34,189 bases of DNA from Myxococcales bacterium (GTDB taxonomy: Bacteria; Myxococcota_A; Polyangia; Polyangiales; Polyangiaceae), in the NCBI GenBank assembly GCA_020430845.1, contig JAGQJA010000002.1, positions 1 to 34,189 on the forward strand. Direction: 5' to 3'. Within the stretch, counting starts at the first letter, position 1, and each line of letters opens with the position of its first letter. Shown here piece by piece: positions 17,701-22,709 of this stretch. The notes beneath the pieces were generated by a model. The model saw only the letters and a list, made by a program, of their open reading frames with translations, did not search any database and was not told the DNA's origin. A program made the translations under genes and the position numbers.

Positions 17701-18213
17701 GTGCTGCACCGAAACGACACCGAGGCCTGTCTCCGCATCCTCCTCGCCGTCGCCCTCGCCGACGGGACCGTCACGTCGGACGAAGAGCGCGCGCTCGGCA
17801 TCCTCGCCGGCGTCCACGATCTGCCCAAGGCCGACGCCTCGCTCATCGTCGACATCCCCAAAGAGGCGGCGCGCATCAGCTCGCCCGAGGCCCGTCGCGC
17901 CACGTACGACGCGGCCATCGCCATGAGCGAGATCGACGGACACTGCACGGCCGAAGAGCACGCGCTCCTCGTGACCATCGGCAAGGCGCTCGGCTTCGAC
18001 GATCCGCCGGGCCTCACGGTCCGCGAGCACGCGTGGCACGAGGATCTCGACGAGCCGCGCGCGCGCCTGGCGAGCGTCGAGTCGAAGTTCCTGCACGAGA
18101 TGGCCCGGGCCGACACCATGTCGAACGCCGCCTACGCCGCGCGCGTCGAGGAGCTGCGCGCGGAGCGAGAGGCGATCCTGCGCGAGGCGCTCGGCGCGGC
18201 GATCGTCCAGTGA
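17701..18213 (+). CDS. TerB-like domain protein
   Basis: A 170-residue cytoplasmic protein made mostly of helices. Residues about 10-115 contain the repeated TerB pattern of acidic helices: ILLAVALADGTVTSDEERALG, then ATYDAAIAMSEIDGHCTAEEHALLVTIGKAL. The Asp/Glu-rich ends of helices (ADG..T.DE and IDG..TAEE) are the family's metal-binding positions. The C-terminal third (about 120-165) is helical and charged, likely coiled coil. TerB proteins bind metal and are linked to tellurite resistance, stress and phage exclusion; a role here cannot be assigned. GTG 17701 is the only plausible start. A second TerB-like protein lies at 22263-22709, unlinked. Confidence 0.7.
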   Translation: MLHRNDTEACLRILLAVALADGTVTSDEERALGILAGVHDLPKADASLIVDIPKEAARISSPEARRATYDAAIAMSEIDGHCTAEEHALLVTIGKALGFDDPPGLTVREHAWHEDLDEPRARLASVESKFLHEMARADTMSNAAYAARVEELRAEREAILREALGAAIVQ

Positions 18214-18288: not shown

Positions 18289-18729
18289 ATGGATCCCGTA
18301 GGAGAATTCACACTCAAGGTCGAGCAGGTCGACGGCTTCGACTTCCGCGTCCGCTTCGACAAAGAACGTTACGCCGACCTGCGCATCGACGAGCCCGAGC
18401 CCCTGGGCCAGGACTCGGCGCCCAACCCGGCGCGCATCCTGGCGGCGGCCATCGGCGACTGCCTCTCCGCGAGCCTCGTCTTCTGCCTCAAGCGCAGGCG
18501 CGTCACCGTGACGGGCTTGCGCTCCGAGGTGCGCGTGCAGCTCGTCCGCAACGAGCGCAAGCGGCTCCGCATCGGCAAGGTCGAGGTCGTCATCCATCCC
18601 GGCAGCGGGATCGACGACGAAGCGCTGCAGGCCTGCCTCGGCACGTTCGAAGACTTCTGCGTCGTCACACAGAGCGTGCGCGAGGGCATCGAGGTCGACG
18701 TGCGCGTCGAGCCGTCCCCCGCGGCGTAG
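18289..18729 (+). CDS. OsmC family protein
   Basis: A 146-residue protein of the OsmC/Ohr family, cytoplasmic thiol peroxidases that reduce organic hydroperoxides. The two reactive Cys positions are present: Cys58 in AAAIGDCLSASL and Cys125 in FEDFCVVTQSVREGIEV. The family's beta-strands lead into the first Cys helix. It also has GQDSAPNPARIL, where the family has PPELL, and lacks the usual glycine pattern of Ohr, so it is nearer to the general OsmC/YhfA branch. The start ATG 18289 has GGAGG 8 bases upstream. It is followed by a regulator gene in the opposite direction, 15 bases from its stop. Along with the glutathione peroxidase at 21631 it indicates peroxide stress in this region. Confidence 0.83.
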   Translation: MDPVGEFTLKVEQVDGFDFRVRFDKERYADLRIDEPEPLGQDSAPNPARILAAAIGDCLSASLVFCLKRRRVTVTGLRSEVRVQLVRNERKRLRIGKVEVVIHPGSGIDDEALQACLGTFEDFCVVTQSVREGIEVDVRVEPSPAA

Positions 18730-18744
18730 GGTGATCTCCGCCGC

Positions 18745-19641
18745 TCACGCGTGCAGCGCGTCGGCGAACGACGCGAGGTGACCCATCGCGTCGCAGAACG
18801 CCGCGTAGCGGAGCTGCTTGCGGACGGCGGGCTCGAGCGCACGCCCGCCCACAACGAGTGACGCCCCGACGGTGCGGGCGGCCTCCTCGACGCGCGCGTG
18901 CCCCGCGGCCAAGCGCCGCGCGTCGACGACGTGTCCCACCGAGAGCCAGACCAGCCTCGGTCGGCGGGCCGAGACCGCGTGCGCGATGGTCTCGGCCGGG
19001 AGCCAGGTTCCGAGCGAGCTCGCGTCGTAGCCGCGCTCTCGCAGCACGAGCTCGGCGAGGGCGGTCGGCAACGAGAACGGATCCCCCTCGAGCGTGCCGC
19101 CGATGGCACGCGGCGCGCCGCGGCCGGGAACCGGAAGCGCGCGATCGATCTCGCGGAGCGCGCGGTGCACGAGCTCGCACGCGCGGCGCTCTTCGTACAC
19201 GTCGACCGTGCCGCGCTCCCACCGCTCTCCGATCTCGGCGAACACCGGGGTGATGACCTCGTCGCTCAAGGCGTGGACGGAGCCCCGCGCGCGCCATGCG
19301 TCGAGGATCGTCGCCGCGACGCGCTCCGCGTCGTCGGCAAGGAGCGCGTGCATCAAGGTGCGCCGCGCCGCAGCTGCGGTGGGCGACGGCGAGCGGGAGG
19401 GCTCCTCGTCGACGAACAGGGCCGAAGGCGCTCGGAGCACGTGGCCCCGATCGCGCGCGAACCGCAGCACGTCGGCCACCGCGACGCGCCTGTGGCCGCC
19501 AGGCGTCCGCGACGTGGCGAGGTGCCCGCGGTCGCACCACCGCTTGACGGACGACTCGCTCACGCCGAGGGCCGCCGCGACCTGCTTGGGAGATGCGTCT
19601 ATGATGAACGATTTGGCCGATAGATGCTGCTCAGCCGCCAC
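18745..19641 (-). CDS. MerR-type regulator with degenerate B12-binding (CarH-like) domain
   Basis: A 298-residue regulator. Residues 15-65 form a MerR-like winged helix (ASPKQVAAALGVSESSVKRWC, TPGGHRR). Residues about 95-165 are a four-helix cap and about 180-295 a cobalamin-type Rossmann domain. The layout is that of CarA/CarH/LitR photoreceptor repressors. But the ligand residues are absent. The loop that normally reads Asp-x-His-xx-Gly is Asp187-Pro-Phe189-Ser-Leu-Pro192, so the lower axial His is missing. In the cap the W-x9-E-H motif keeps Trp141 and Glu151 but has Arg152 in place of His. It may sense something other than B12, or act by protein partners. GTG 19641 coincides with the predicted transcript start, suggesting a leaderless mRNA. 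It diverges from the START/ABC1/peroxidase operon. Confidence 0.82.
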   Translation of the reverse strand: MAAEQHLSAKSFIIDASPKQVAAALGVSESSVKRWCDRGHLATSRTPGGHRRVAVADVLRFARDRGHVLRAPSALFVDEEPSRSPSPTAAAARRTLMHALLADDAERVAATILDAWRARGSVHALSDEVITPVFAEIGERWERGTVDVYEERRACELVHRALREIDRALPVPGRGAPRAIGGTLEGDPFSLPTALAELVLRERGYDASSLGTWLPAETIAHAVSARRPRLVWLSVGHVVDARRLAAGHARVEEAARTVGASLVVGGRALEPAVRKQLRYAAFCDAMGHLASFADALHA

Positions 19642-19647
19642 CCACCG

Positions 19648-19675
19648 ATAATAGCAGAACGCCCCTAGACATCAA
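19648..19675 (-). promoter_or_regulatory. Extended -10 promoter of the CarH-like gene
   Basis: On the minus strand TTGATG (19675-19670) and TATTAT (19653-19648) are 16 bp apart, with a TGC extension before the -10 box. Transcription would begin at or next to 19641, the first base of the GTG start codon, so the mRNA may have no leader. Its -35 box overlaps that of the rightward promoter at 19666-19671. Confidence 0.6.
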
Positions 19676-19693
19676 GGCATCTACCCTCATACT
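19666..19693 (+). promoter_or_regulatory. Promoter of the START/ABC1/peroxidase operon
   Basis: TAGACA (19666-19671) and CATACT (19688-19693) are 16 bp apart; the -35 differs from consensus in one position. The -35 boxes of this and the leftward promoter share two bases, so a single bound regulator could control both directions. A 7-bp inverted repeat TAGATGC (19621-19627) and GCATCTA (19677-19683) brackets both -35 boxes. Confidence 0.5.
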
Positions 19694-19725
19694 TCAGAGA
19701 CGGCTCGCGCAACCCTATCCCAACG

Positions 19726-20310
19726 GTGAACGTTTTGAACGTTACAGAGGAACGATTCACGGTGGGGGCGCCCCTCGAACGGCTCCGCGACCTGCTGCTC
19801 GACGACCTCCCTCGCGTCGCGCGCTTCATGCCGCACGTCGAACGGATCGATCCGATGTCGTCGCGTTGGTCTTTTGGTCAGCTGGAGCACCGAGATCGGT
19901 GGCTCGTCCGCCGGCCGGCGCCGCGCCCGTCTGGCGTCATGATCGACGACGCGCACATATGGATCGTGCGCGCGCGGTGGAGCCTGGCGCCCTGCATCGT
20001 CACGTGGGAGCTCGAGCGTCGCGAACGCTCCTCGGCCGTGGCCGCGTCGGGCTGGGTGCGACTCGACGCCGACGGGCCGCACCGCACCCTCGTCACGGCG
20101 CGCGCTCAGGTGCGCGTCGGGCTCGCGACCAAGGTGATGCGCGCCGCGCAGCGAGGCGCGAGCAAGCTCGAGCACGTGCTCGGTGCCGTCGTCCGGCAGA
20201 ACGTCGTCGCCCTCTTCGAGGCGGCCGACAGCGCGCGCGTGCAGAACCTCTCCGCGAGGCCGTGGATGGCGTCGCATCCCGCCCGCTTGACCGGCCGGAG
20301 CCTGTCGTGA
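19726..20310 (+). CDS. START/SRPBCC-like protein
   Basis: This 194-residue protein has the look of a START/SRPBCC (polyketide-cyclase/COQ10-like) fold. Residues about 1-160 run as: an N-terminal strand (NVTEERFTVGAP), a first helix (LERLRDLLLDDLPRVARFMPHVERID), then seven beta-like strands (for example WSLAPCIVTWELERR, ASGWVRLDADG, TLVTARAQVRVG), and a long C-terminal helix (TKVMRAAQRGASKLEHVLGAVVRQNVVALF). The layout of helix-strands-helix enclosing a hydrophobic cavity is that of lipid- or quinone-binding proteins, but no diagnostic residues name the ligand. GTG 19726 starts it; a promoter lies at 19666-19693. Its stop overlaps the kinase start by four bases (GTGA), so the two are translated together. 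Confidence 0.65.
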   Translation: MNVLNVTEERFTVGAPLERLRDLLLDDLPRVARFMPHVERIDPMSSRWSFGQLEHRDRWLVRRPAPRPSGVMIDDAHIWIVRARWSLAPCIVTWELERRERSSAVAASGWVRLDADGPHRTLVTARAQVRVGLATKVMRAAQRGASKLEHVLGAVVRQNVVALFEAADSARVQNLSARPWMASHPARLTGRSLS

Positions 20311-21647
20311 CGGCGCCGCTGCGCACAGACATGCTCGGGCGCTCCAAGGCGATGTTCGCGCTCGCGGCCGGCGTCGCGGGGCAGGAGCTGCGTCACCGCG
20401 TGCGCTCGGGCCTCGCCGCGTCGGCCGAGAAGGTCGGCGCGTCCGAGCTGCGGGCGCGCGTCGAGCAGGCCAAGCTCATCGTCGAGAGTCTCGGTCGACT
20501 CAAGGGAGCCCTCATGAAGGCGGGGCAGCTCCTCTCGATCGACGCGAGCGACATCCTCCCGCCCGAGGCGACCGAGATCCTCTCCAGGCTCCAGGGACGC
20601 GCGGAGCCGGTCGACTTCGAGGTCGTCCGCGGAGTGCTCGAGGCAGAGCTCGGCGAGGAGCGACTTGCTGCCCTCGAGGGGCTCGACCCGCAGCCCGCCG
20701 CTTCGGCGAGCATCGGCCAGGTACACCGGGCACGCGTGCTCGGGACCGACGTGGCGGTCAAGGTGCAGTACCCAGGCGTCGCCGAGAGCATCGACAGCGA
20801 CATCGCGTTGCTCGAGAAGCTGGCCGACAGCTGGCTGTCGCTCGCGCGCCGCGAGGTCGACCTCGCGGGCGTCTTCGAGGAGCTCCGCGTCATCTTGCAT
20901 CTCGAGGCCGACTACGATCGCGAGCGCGCCCACCTCGAGCGCTTCGGAGAGCTGCTCGCGGCCGATGCCCGGTTCGACGTCCCGCGCGCGCTGCCGTCGC
21001 TCTCGACGTCGCGCGTGCTCACGATGACGTGGGCCGACGGCGTCCCGCTCTCGGAGTGGATCCTCTCGGCGCCCTCGCGTGCCGACCGTGTCGCGTTCGC
21101 CCGCGCCATGCTCGATCTCTACTGCATGGAGTTCTTTCGATGGGGGCTCGTGCAGACCGACCCCAACTTCGGCAACTTCCTCGTCCGGCCCGAGCGCGAT
21201 CAGATCGTGCTCCTCGATTTCGGCGCCACCGTCGAATACGACGTCGACTTCCGTCGCCAGTACACGCGCCTTCTCAGGGCGGTCGACCGCTCGAGCCGCA
21301 ACGACATCGTCGAAGAGGGCGTGGCGTTCGGCCTGCTCGACCCGCGCGAGGGGCCCGAGGCGCGCGACATGTTCGCCGAGATGCTCCTCAGCGCCGCGGA
21401 GCCGTTCGACGCGCGGCGCCAGCCCTTCGCCTTCCGCGACGGCGACTACGCGGCCCGCTCGCGCGACGTGGTGCGCAGGTTCACCAAGAGCCTTCGTTTC
21501 TCGCCGCCGCCGCGCCGCCTCATCTTCTTGCACAGAAAGCTCGGCGGGCTGTTCCAGTTGCTCAAGCGGCTCGACGTCGAGCTCGATCTCTCTCCGTACT
21601 GGGAGCAGATGGTCGGAAGGGACGACACCCATGATCTCACTGCGTGA
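20307..21647 (+). CDS. ABC1/UbiB atypical kinase, COQ8-like
   Basis: A 446-residue member of the ABC1 (UbiB/ADCK/Coq8) family. Motifs in order: the family-specific Lys71-Ala-Gly-Gln74 (KxGQ); AASASIGQVHRA at 131-142, which replaces the usual glycine-rich loop; VAVKVQYPG with the ATP Lys152; QTDPNFGNF at 283-291; and LDFG with Asp304. QTDPNxxNF is the form used by Coq8/ADCK3, rather than the HxDPHPGN of most bacterial members. Coq8-type proteins are ATPases needed for quinone synthesis or lipid handling. No transmembrane helix is evident at the C-terminus. GTG 20307 has GGAG 7 bases upstream. It overlaps its upstream neighbour by four bases and the peroxidase gene by 17, so this is a tight operon. 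Confidence 0.88.
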   Translation: MTAPLRTDMLGRSKAMFALAAGVAGQELRHRVRSGLAASAEKVGASELRARVEQAKLIVESLGRLKGALMKAGQLLSIDASDILPPEATEILSRLQGRAEPVDFEVVRGVLEAELGEERLAALEGLDPQPAASASIGQVHRARVLGTDVAVKVQYPGVAESIDSDIALLEKLADSWLSLARREVDLAGVFEELRVILHLEADYDRERAHLERFGELLAADARFDVPRALPSLSTSRVLTMTWADGVPLSEWILSAPSRADRVAFARAMLDLYCMEFFRWGLVQTDPNFGNFLVRPERDQIVLLDFGATVEYDVDFRRQYTRLLRAVDRSSRNDIVEEGVAFGLLDPREGPEARDMFAEMLLSAAEPFDARRQPFAFRDGDYAARSRDVVRRFTKSLRFSPPPRRLIFLHRKLGGLFQLLKRLDVELDLSPYWEQMVGRDDTHDLTA

Positions 21648-22254
21648 TCCGACCGTCCTCGTCGCCGCGTGCGCGCTCGCCGCGGGGGTGATGGCATGCA
21701 AGGGCGACGCGCCCCCCTCACCCAGCGCCTCGACGGCGCCGTCGAGCGCCGCGACCGCTTCGGAGGGCGCGACGACAGGGCGCTCGATCCACGGCTTCGA
21801 CCTCAAGCGCCTCGACGGGACGCCCGCGTCGCTGGCGGCGTGGTCGGGCAAGGTGCTCTTGGTGGTGAACACCGCGTCCGAGTGTGGGTACACACCTCAG
21901 TACGAGGGACTGCAGGCGCTCCACGCAAAGTACGAGGCGCGCGGGTTCGCGGTGCTGGGCTTTCCGTCGAACGACTTCGGCGGGCAGGAGCCCGGCACCT
22001 CGGCCGAGATCGCCTCGTTCTGCAAGACGCGTTACGGCGTGACCTTTCCGATGTTCGAGAAGGTCGTCACCAAGGGCCGCGACCGCGCTCCCCTCTACGC
22101 CACGCTGGGCGACGCGCTCGGTCCGCCCAAGTGGAACTTCCACAAGTACCTCGTCGACAAGAAGGGCGTGCCGGTCAAGGCCTGGCCGAGCGCCGTCGCG
22201 CCCGACGCCAAGGAGATCGCAGAGGCGATCGAGGCGCTGCTCGCGGGGCCTTGA
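21631..22254 (+). CDS. Lipoprotein glutathione peroxidase
   Basis: A 207-residue protein. The first 23 residues are a lipoprotein signal (Cys23, VMAC), followed by a Ser/Ala/Pro linker, so the enzyme sits in the envelope. The rest is a glutathione peroxidase-type thiol peroxidase. Peroxidatic Cys85 is in NTASECGYTPQYEGLQALH. FPSNDFGGQEPG has Asp115 where the catalytic Gln usually is, and Ser113 where a Cys is common. Cys131 in SFCKTRYGVTFPMF may be the resolving Cys. WNFHKY has Trp168. As a Cys (not Sec) enzyme it probably uses thioredoxin-like partners and removes lipid hydroperoxides. ATG 21631 lies within the 3' end of the kinase gene, with GGAAGG about 9 bases upstream, indicating coupled translation. 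Confidence 0.85.
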   Translation: MISLRDPTVLVAACALAAGVMACKGDAPPSPSASTAPSSAATASEGATTGRSIHGFDLKRLDGTPASLAAWSGKVLLVVNTASECGYTPQYEGLQALHAKYEARGFAVLGFPSNDFGGQEPGTSAEIASFCKTRYGVTFPMFEKVVTKGRDRAPLYATLGDALGPPKWNFHKYLVDKKGVPVKAWPSAVAPDAKEIAEAIEALLAGP

Positions 22255-22262
22255 GCCGCCGC

Positions 22263-22709
22263 TCAGGCCGTGCCGCCACCGTCGAGCGCGACGCGTCGGG
22301 CGAGCGCCTCGCGACGGTCGGCCGAGATGTGCAGCACGTCGCCGAGGACGGTGTGCAGGCGGTCCTCGGCCTCGTGCGGGTCTTGATCGACGAAGGCGAG
22401 GGCGAGCGCGAGCACGTACGCCAGCTCGTGGTGCTCGACGGGCAGCTTGGGGGCCAGCGCCTGGACGCGCGCGACGATGTCCTCGGGGTCGATGTTGTGC
22501 GCGAACTTGGCGACGAGCGACTCGACGTCCGCGTTGCTCACGCTCTGGAGCCCGCGTAGGCGCGCCGCGAGCACCTGGAACGCGGCGAGCTCTTCGTCGG
22601 TGAGCCGCCCGTCGATCGCGGTCACGAGGTAGGCGATCTCGAGCATCGCGTACGCGACGGCCGGAGAGAGCGCGAGGTCGGGGGGAAGGTGCGCATCGAT
22701 CCCGGACAT
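22263..22709 (-). CDS. Small TerB-like helical protein
   Basis: A 148-residue cytoplasmic protein of helices, with the TerB-type acidic pattern: AYAMLEIAYLVTAIDGRLTDEELAAFQVLAARLRG, and a second like helix near ELAYVLALALAFVDQDPHEAEDRLHTVLGDVL. The IDG..TDEE and VDQ..HEAE pairs correspond to the two acidic metal sites of the family. It is shorter than the TerB protein at 17701 and does not share its C-terminal coil. Its stop is eight bases beyond the stop of the glutathione peroxidase gene, in the opposite direction. ATG 22709 is the start. Function is unknown; the fold assignment is by pattern only. Confidence 0.6.
   Translation of the reverse strand: MSGIDAHLPPDLALSPAVAYAMLEIAYLVTAIDGRLTDEELAAFQVLAARLRGLQSVSNADVESLVAKFAHNIDPEDIVARVQALAPKLPVEHHELAYVLALALAFVDQDPHEAEDRLHTVLGDVLHISADRREALARRVALDGGGTA

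Follow-up and report, generated by a model that had tools for sequence, protein, structure and literature searches.

The locus described here raises the question of what a regulator built like the B12 photoreceptor CarH would control, and in answer to which signal, when it faces a short run of overlapping lipid- and peroxide-related genes. It lies in a stretch of 34,189 nucleotides (referred to below as the window) of a Myxococcales bacterium (GenBank assembly GCA_020430845.1, contig JAGQJA010000002.1). The regulator gene, REG (18745–19641, minus strand, GTG start, 298 residues), was identified by its open reading frame (ORF), Pfam, NCBIfam and predicted structure. Across a gap of 84 bp it diverges from three genes on the plus strand: START, an SRPBCC/START-superfamily protein assigned from its predicted fold (19726–20310, GTG start, 194 residues); a COQ8/ADCK-like ABC1 kinase assigned from Pfam/NCBIfam, motifs and structures (20307–21647, GTG start, 446 residues); and Gpx, a predicted lipoprotein of the glutathione-peroxidase family (21631–22254, ATG start, 207 residues; Pfam/NCBIfam). 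START and the kinase overlap by 4 bp (GTGA) and the kinase and Gpx by 17 bp; an earlier note, made from the DNA letters, had described this arrangement, and all the ORFs lie where it placed them. Our computational analysis makes it moderately probable that REG is a cobalamin-independent regulator of photo-oxidative stress which drives this SRPBCC/COQ8-like kinase/lipoprotein peroxidase module.

REG has the fold of CarH. Pfam recognises HTH_17 and B12-binding_2 in the sequence, with B12-binding present but below its cut-off, and the NCBIfam CarH model scores 57 against a cut-off of 400. The AlphaFold2 model (predicted local distance difference test, pLDDT, of 93) shows a complete Rossmann domain within a CarH fold; the closest solved structures are CtMerR (8JBS) and Thermus thermophilus CarH, and Foldseek matches the adenosylcobalamin (AdoCbl)-binding domain of CtMerR with a template modelling (TM) score of 0.84 by target length, at 1.9–2.0 Å. 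Light-responsive cobalamin domains carry the signature GxxW, EH, GxxH and GxxxP, and W131, E141, H142 and H177 of CarH are given as key residues for AdoCbl binding (PMC11796333). REG keeps GxxW (as GERW) and GxxxP (as GTWLP). The EH position is occupied by Glu151-Arg152 and the GxxH position reads GDPF, with Phe189 in the place of the lower axial histidine.

The same losses characterise a clade of 82 sequences, comprising the window REG, the G080 homologue L006/L049 and 80 genome loci (L numbers denote loci). The genome scan used a helix-turn-helix (HTH) pattern, with no selection on C-terminal residues; of the loci it gave, the 80 nearest to the query were retained. Glu-Arg stands at the EH position in 82/82 sequences, Arg152 being invariant; Trp141 and Glu151 hardly vary. 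At position 189, 79 sequences have Tyr, two have Cys, one (the window) has Phe and none has His, whereas all 18 His-bearing relatives in the outgroup have both EH and the axial histidine. The clade also has cysteines of its own (Cys155 in 77/82, Cys283 in 75/82, Cys36 in 69/82 and Cys143 in 65/82), nearly all of them missing at these positions in His-bearing relatives; the window REG carries Cys36, Cys155 and Cys283, with Arg in place of Cys143 (GERWERG). A FastTree tree recovers the clade as monophyletic (support 0.785) and pairs the window REG with L082 (0.975). Ten further Myxococcota sequences form a second group, which keeps EH but has Tyr at the 189 position, consistent with a stepwise loss of the cobalamin ligands. 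With the CarH fold kept and both ligand histidines gone, REG is, judged by sequence and model, no B12 photoreceptor of the known type. The earlier description of it as CarH-like is thereby borne out for layout and fold but fails for the cobalamin ligands, EH and axial His alike. A literature search covering open-access papers found no description of this clade.

Between REG and the kinase gene, the window and L082 share an identical string, AACGTTCAAAACGTT. Of 91 regions upstream of REG relatives, 31 match it at 13 or more of the 15 bases; among 1,820 shuffled regions, none does. The weight matrix built from 36 sites has the consensus AAA(A/T)CGTTCAAA(A/T)CGTTCA(T/C), containing two 9-bp direct repeats, and gives 97 matches in 1.05 Mb of REG-relative loci and one in shuffled DNA. 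Predicted operator site 1, TGTAACGTTCAAAACGTTCA (19727–19746, minus strand), has both 9-bp repeats perfect and overlaps the START start codon, for which GTG 19726 and TTG 19735 are candidates; operator-like site 2, TCTATCGGCCAAATCGTTCA (19605–19624, minus strand), lies within the 5′ end of REG. The two are the best sites of the 34-kb window and flank the divergent promoter region. They score 27.2 and 17.1 bits respectively, the window site being itself one of the 36 behind the matrix, while the next best in the window reaches 2.6 bits and the best in 100 simulated windows 12.3 bits. The site between REG and the kinase in L185, which is not among the 36 and is independent of the matrix, scores 32.2 bits. 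Promoter-like elements, by consensus match only, point towards START (TAGACA-16-CATACT, 19666–19693, plus strand) and towards REG (TTGATG-16-TATTAT, 19648–19675, minus strand).

The operators of the better-known relatives were not recovered. The repeats used by CarH are 11 bp long (PMC9304148), and 19501–19800 contains no TnnACA in tandem at this spacing, as in the CarH-type operator nnnnTnnACAn; likewise, the best match in the promoter region to the class II LitR site TGTACA-N12-TGTACA has 5 mismatches in 12. The best specific model for the REG HTH is BldC (42 bits, E 5.2e-11, below the curated cut-off of 77), a protein that binds 9-bp direct repeats AATTXXXX(C) head-to-tail (PMC5859096). The 8.6-Mb assembly contains one perfect operator site, at this locus, and its lone one-mismatch site falls inside a coding ORF; a genome-wide REG regulon was accordingly rejected for this genome and, because the perfect site is single, REG looks dedicated to its own locus. 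In L013, a weaker 9-bp repeat operator (19.2 bits) lies upstream of a His-bearing CarH-like gene, which suggests that the mode of DNA binding may be older than the loss of the cobalamin ligands.

The genes around REG relatives share a theme. Within 7 kb, and with identities checked by Pfam, 81 clade loci contain amine oxidase (31), DUF1365 (28), cyclopropane-fatty-acid (CFA) synthase (25), sigma factor (18), DUF1295 (16), ferrochelatase (14), photolyase (11; 19/92 loci by clustering), fasciclin (11) and FolE (5). At least one of eight strict singlet-oxygen/light families is found within this distance in 58/81 clade loci, in comparison to 0/15 control loci, and matches to the neighbour families thin out with distance from REG. 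Operators situated away from REG adjoin sigma factor, FolE, fasciclin, amine oxidase and SRPBCC genes. An SRPBCC neighbour occurs in 22/81 core loci and three mid-clade loci, and also in L074, against 0/16 controls; in several loci it is directly beside an operator. These SRPBCC proteins stand alone or are fused to a TIGR01777 epimerase, as in L158:3703–5202 and L077:4501–6024. A corresponding gene set makes up the RpoE-ChrR singlet-oxygen regulon (PMC7074977), and the regulon of Shewanella RpoE2, a singlet-oxygen-type sigma factor, includes periplasmic/envelope Gpx and ferrochelatase (PMC4336711). Across dozens of genomes of Planctomycetota and Myxococcota, REG relatives are found next to the singlet-oxygen/light genes of the ChrR and LitR regulons, in many cases together with an SRPBCC gene. 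The oxidative and photo-oxidative theme of the protection module proposed in the earlier note gains support from these loci and from the envelope Gpx of the RpoE2 regulon; a function against quinone or lipid peroxides is still putative.

Several further arrangements were seen beside REG relatives. The 14 loci with ferrochelatase are all from Planctomycetota (L112, L124, L129, L136, L139, L140, L147, L149 and others) and mostly have Val for Cys36. Myxococcota relatives with GDPY and an intact EH diverge from a gene for an extracytoplasmic function (ECF)-type sigma factor (L072:4973–5518, L075:2056–2727, L077:6922–7461 and L078:5350–6165; Pfam-checked in L072 and L075). An LtrA/inward-rectifier potassium channel fusion is encoded at L071:4304–6469.

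How much of the window arrangement is conserved was examined in the genomes searched. Eight further genomes of the family carry kinase orthologues of 60–68% identity. In two of these, from another genus (L185, and L189, which is the same contig as L082), REG diverges from the kinase with the operator between, giving three genomes with REG, operator and kinase together when the window is included; L185 also has a TspO gene, which the kinase gene overlaps. Neither REG nor operator accompanies the remaining six orthologues with identities of 60% or more (L046, L183, L184, L186, L187 and L188). No close REG relative was found in congeners, and in six congeners inspected at the NtrC-type gene that neighbours the module only this gene is shared in the neighbourhood, plus scattered single matches. 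START-like sequences at E ≤1e-5 occur in 4 of 116 genomes, all of them weak except the window's own, and homologues of Gpx, OsmC and START are beside REG in 0/80 clade loci. Conservation of the whole operon was therefore not found, whether in the 115 relatives searched with START, in the congeners at the NtrC-type gene or around the kinase orthologues. Because START, Gpx and OsmC homologues are absent from the other loci, the conserved unit within the family appears to be REG-operator-kinase, with START and Gpx as local additions. Of the two expectations raised earlier, a four-gene order conserved across Myxococcota did not hold, although the REG/kinase pair and its operator recur in another genus, in two genomes; the second, a regulated promoter region shared by the divergent genes, gains support from this recurrence and from the predicted operator.

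START has no Pfam, NCBIfam or PDB-sequence match. Its AlphaFold2 model (pLDDT 73) adopts an SRPBCC/helix-grip fold, with Foldseek matches to ZhuI, the Ups1/PRELID lipid carriers, CoxG and Bet v 1. The kinase matches Pfam ABC1 with 188 bits and has the motifs KAGQ, ASASIGQVH, LLDFGA (residue 302) and, as read earlier, QTDPNFGNF (residues 283–291); COQ8A/B are the closest solved structures. It scores 167 against 487 for the UbiB equivalog. The window genome carries genes of futalosine-pathway (menaquinone) families and, at 88.7% completeness, no UbiA above the curated cut-off, so that the host looks menaquinone-based and the ubiquinone role of COQ8 is not simply transferable. A part in ubiquinone synthesis is hence unlikely for the kinase, which may act in broader isoprenoid or lipid handling. 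Gpx matches GSHPx (PF00255, 112 bits) and has the Cys/Gln/Trp/Asn catalytic set (ECGYT, FGGQEPG, KWNF). Read directly, its N-terminus MISLRDPTVLVAACALAAGVMAC-K is a lipobox-like signal, and a second cysteine in FCKTRY suggests 2-Cys, thioredoxin-type recycling.

We propose that REG would bind through its putatively BldC-type HTH head-to-tail on the 9-bp repeats (A/T)CGTTCA AA (A/T)CGTTCA, and that an oligomer at two sites flanking the 84-bp promoter region would control both REG itself and a START-kinase-Gpx transcript, on which we infer that the three genes are carried together. On the simplest model, REG would be a repressor of both divergent promoters, a role suggested by CarH/LitR practice and by the position of site 1 over the START start codon, and would be released by photo-oxidative stress, namely singlet oxygen, reactive oxygen species or porphyrin; it could instead be an activator. 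Within the module, which as a whole would protect envelope lipids, the SRPBCC protein may bind or carry an isoprenoid, a lipid or a lipid peroxide. The COQ8-like kinase/ATPase may help with the extraction or supply of isoprenoid quinone or a different membrane lipid, and peroxides would be reduced by the Gpx-type peroxidase of the envelope.

The signal could be of more than one kind. REG might still sense light through cobalamin held without the usual lower histidine, either base-off/His-off or Tyr-ligated; the very near fit to the CtMerR AdoCbl domain, the retained GxxW and GxxxP and the nearly invariant Trp141 and Glu151 all favour this. Some B12 enzymes, moreover, hold cobalamin without a lower ligand. 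The absence of both signature histidines (PMC11796333) from the whole clade makes this quite improbable. A heme or porphyrin bound in the B12 fold, as in the SCHIC domain of AppA, would let REG read the risk of porphyrin-driven singlet oxygen, and that domain is a tetrapyrrole-binding precedent in the B12-binding family (PMC10734443). Ferrochelatase adjoins REG in 14 loci, TspO overlaps the kinase gene in L185, and the conserved Tyr and several Cys are possible heme ligands; but most clade loci lack ferrochelatase, those with it mostly have Val for Cys36, and the window REG has Phe rather than Tyr at the ligand position, leaving this reading unlikely. A third possibility, to which we give some weight while leaning against it, is a ligand-free REG governed by the clade cysteines, which would act as a thiol redox switch, or by a partner (photoreceptor or anti-repressor) in the way that a LOV protein governs class II LitR. 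The four cysteines, so frequent in the clade and nearly all missing in His-bearing relatives, argue for it, as do the precedents of PmlR2/LOV (PMC9758184) and of B12-independent CarA in myxobacteria (PMC9304148). Cys36 and Cys143 are not universal, though, the window REG lacks the latter, and no LOV or partner gene was noted beside the locus, the rest of the genome not having been searched for partners.

It is also rather doubtful, on our assessment, that REG controls only itself and the kinase, with START and Gpx joined to the transcript by chance and without joint function. In two further genomes the REG/kinase pair does occur with neither START nor Gpx, and no START, Gpx or OsmC homologue adjoins other REG genes. 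Against this stand the tight 4- and 17-bp overlaps, the recurrence of SRPBCC proteins beside REG and operators elsewhere, and the place of envelope Gpx in the RpoE2-ChrR regulon (PMC4336711). The proposal of a REG-driven protection module has points to answer as well. The START-kinase-Gpx operon was found in no other genome, so that joint function rests on one case, and Gpx adjoins none of the other REG genes. The fold of START is assigned at moderate confidence, and no homology is detectable between START and the SRPBCC genes that adjoin other REG relatives. The neighbour counts derive from the 80 loci closest to the query, nearly all of them Planctomycetota, which are related genomes and not independent; the controls are few (15–16 loci) and come from Myxococcota.

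Comparison with described systems places REG between several of them. Like CarH and class I LitR (T. thermophilus CarH, CtMerR), it combines an HTH, a four-helix and a Rossmann B12-binding fold with GxxW/GxxxP and light-stress genes; unlike them, it is without EH and axial His, has clade-specific cysteines and is associated with 9-bp instead of 11-bp repeats. Class II LitR (Pseudomonas PplR/PmlR) is likewise B12-independent, MerR-type and linked to photolyase, fatty-acid-modifying and FolE genes, but retains only the four-helix bundle and uses TGTACA-N12-TGTACA (PMC9758184), whereas REG keeps the whole fold and another operator. CarA of Myxococcus xanthus is a B12-independent CarH paralogue tied to the singlet-oxygen response (PMC9304148); its pattern of loss is the opposite of that in REG. 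BldC shares with REG the 9-bp direct repeats that start AT-rich and contain a fixed C, known for REG from predicted sites; it is a 68-residue HTH without effector domain, where REG has a CarH-fold one. The RpoE-ChrR systems (Rhodobacter; Shewanella RpoE2 with PgpD/HemH2) have cfa, photolyase, RSP_1090/91-type, SDR, fasciclin, folE, rpoH, periplasmic Gpx and ferrochelatase genes in common with REG loci, yet are controlled by an ECF sigma/anti-sigma pair rather than a CarH-fold regulator, and a COQ8-like kinase is absent from the published regulon lists compared. A MerR-type regulator also acts alongside ChrR when Vibrio cholerae responds to blue light (PMC5241685). The window kinase, finally, resembles the atypical kinases COQ8/ADCK3-4 in KxGQ, the A-rich loop, QTDPN and DFG, but has a menaquinone-looking host and a stress-type regulator.

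Around the module, an OsmC-family gene (18289–18729, plus strand; Pfam/NCBIfam, Pfam 53 bits) is convergent with REG and outside the divergent unit. The operator scan of the window gave no site in front of it and it is absent from related loci; its inclusion in the same theme, suggested in the earlier note, is not upheld. TerB-like ORFs occur on both sides of the module (17701–18213, plus strand; 22263–22709, minus strand), the second below the Pfam cut-off. The 8.6-Mb assembly consists of 806 contigs. Contamination was considered and is unlikely, since the neighbouring NtrC-type gene has orthologues of 81–87% identity in 11/11 congeners, which places the contig in the genus.

With regard to the wider family, we put at slightly below even the chance that the REG clade is a large and undescribed group of CarH-fold regulators of Planctomycetota and Myxococcota whose members have given up cobalamin for a different signal (thiol redox, heme/porphyrin or a partner). 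In these, a BldC-like 9-bp operator would replace the RpoE-ChrR/B12-LitR control of the singlet-oxygen response, and a COQ8-like kinase would have been recruited in this myxobacterial family. The predicted operator is a precise DNA target open to experiment. It would also place a COQ8/ADCK-type kinase, of debated biochemical role, under a stress-type operator beside a lipid-binding-fold protein and a peroxidase, an adjacency that makes a role in lipid protection directly testable. If the proposal is true, the B12 photoreceptor fold has been re-used without B12 for the same programme of photoprotection, whose control has been little studied in these phyla.

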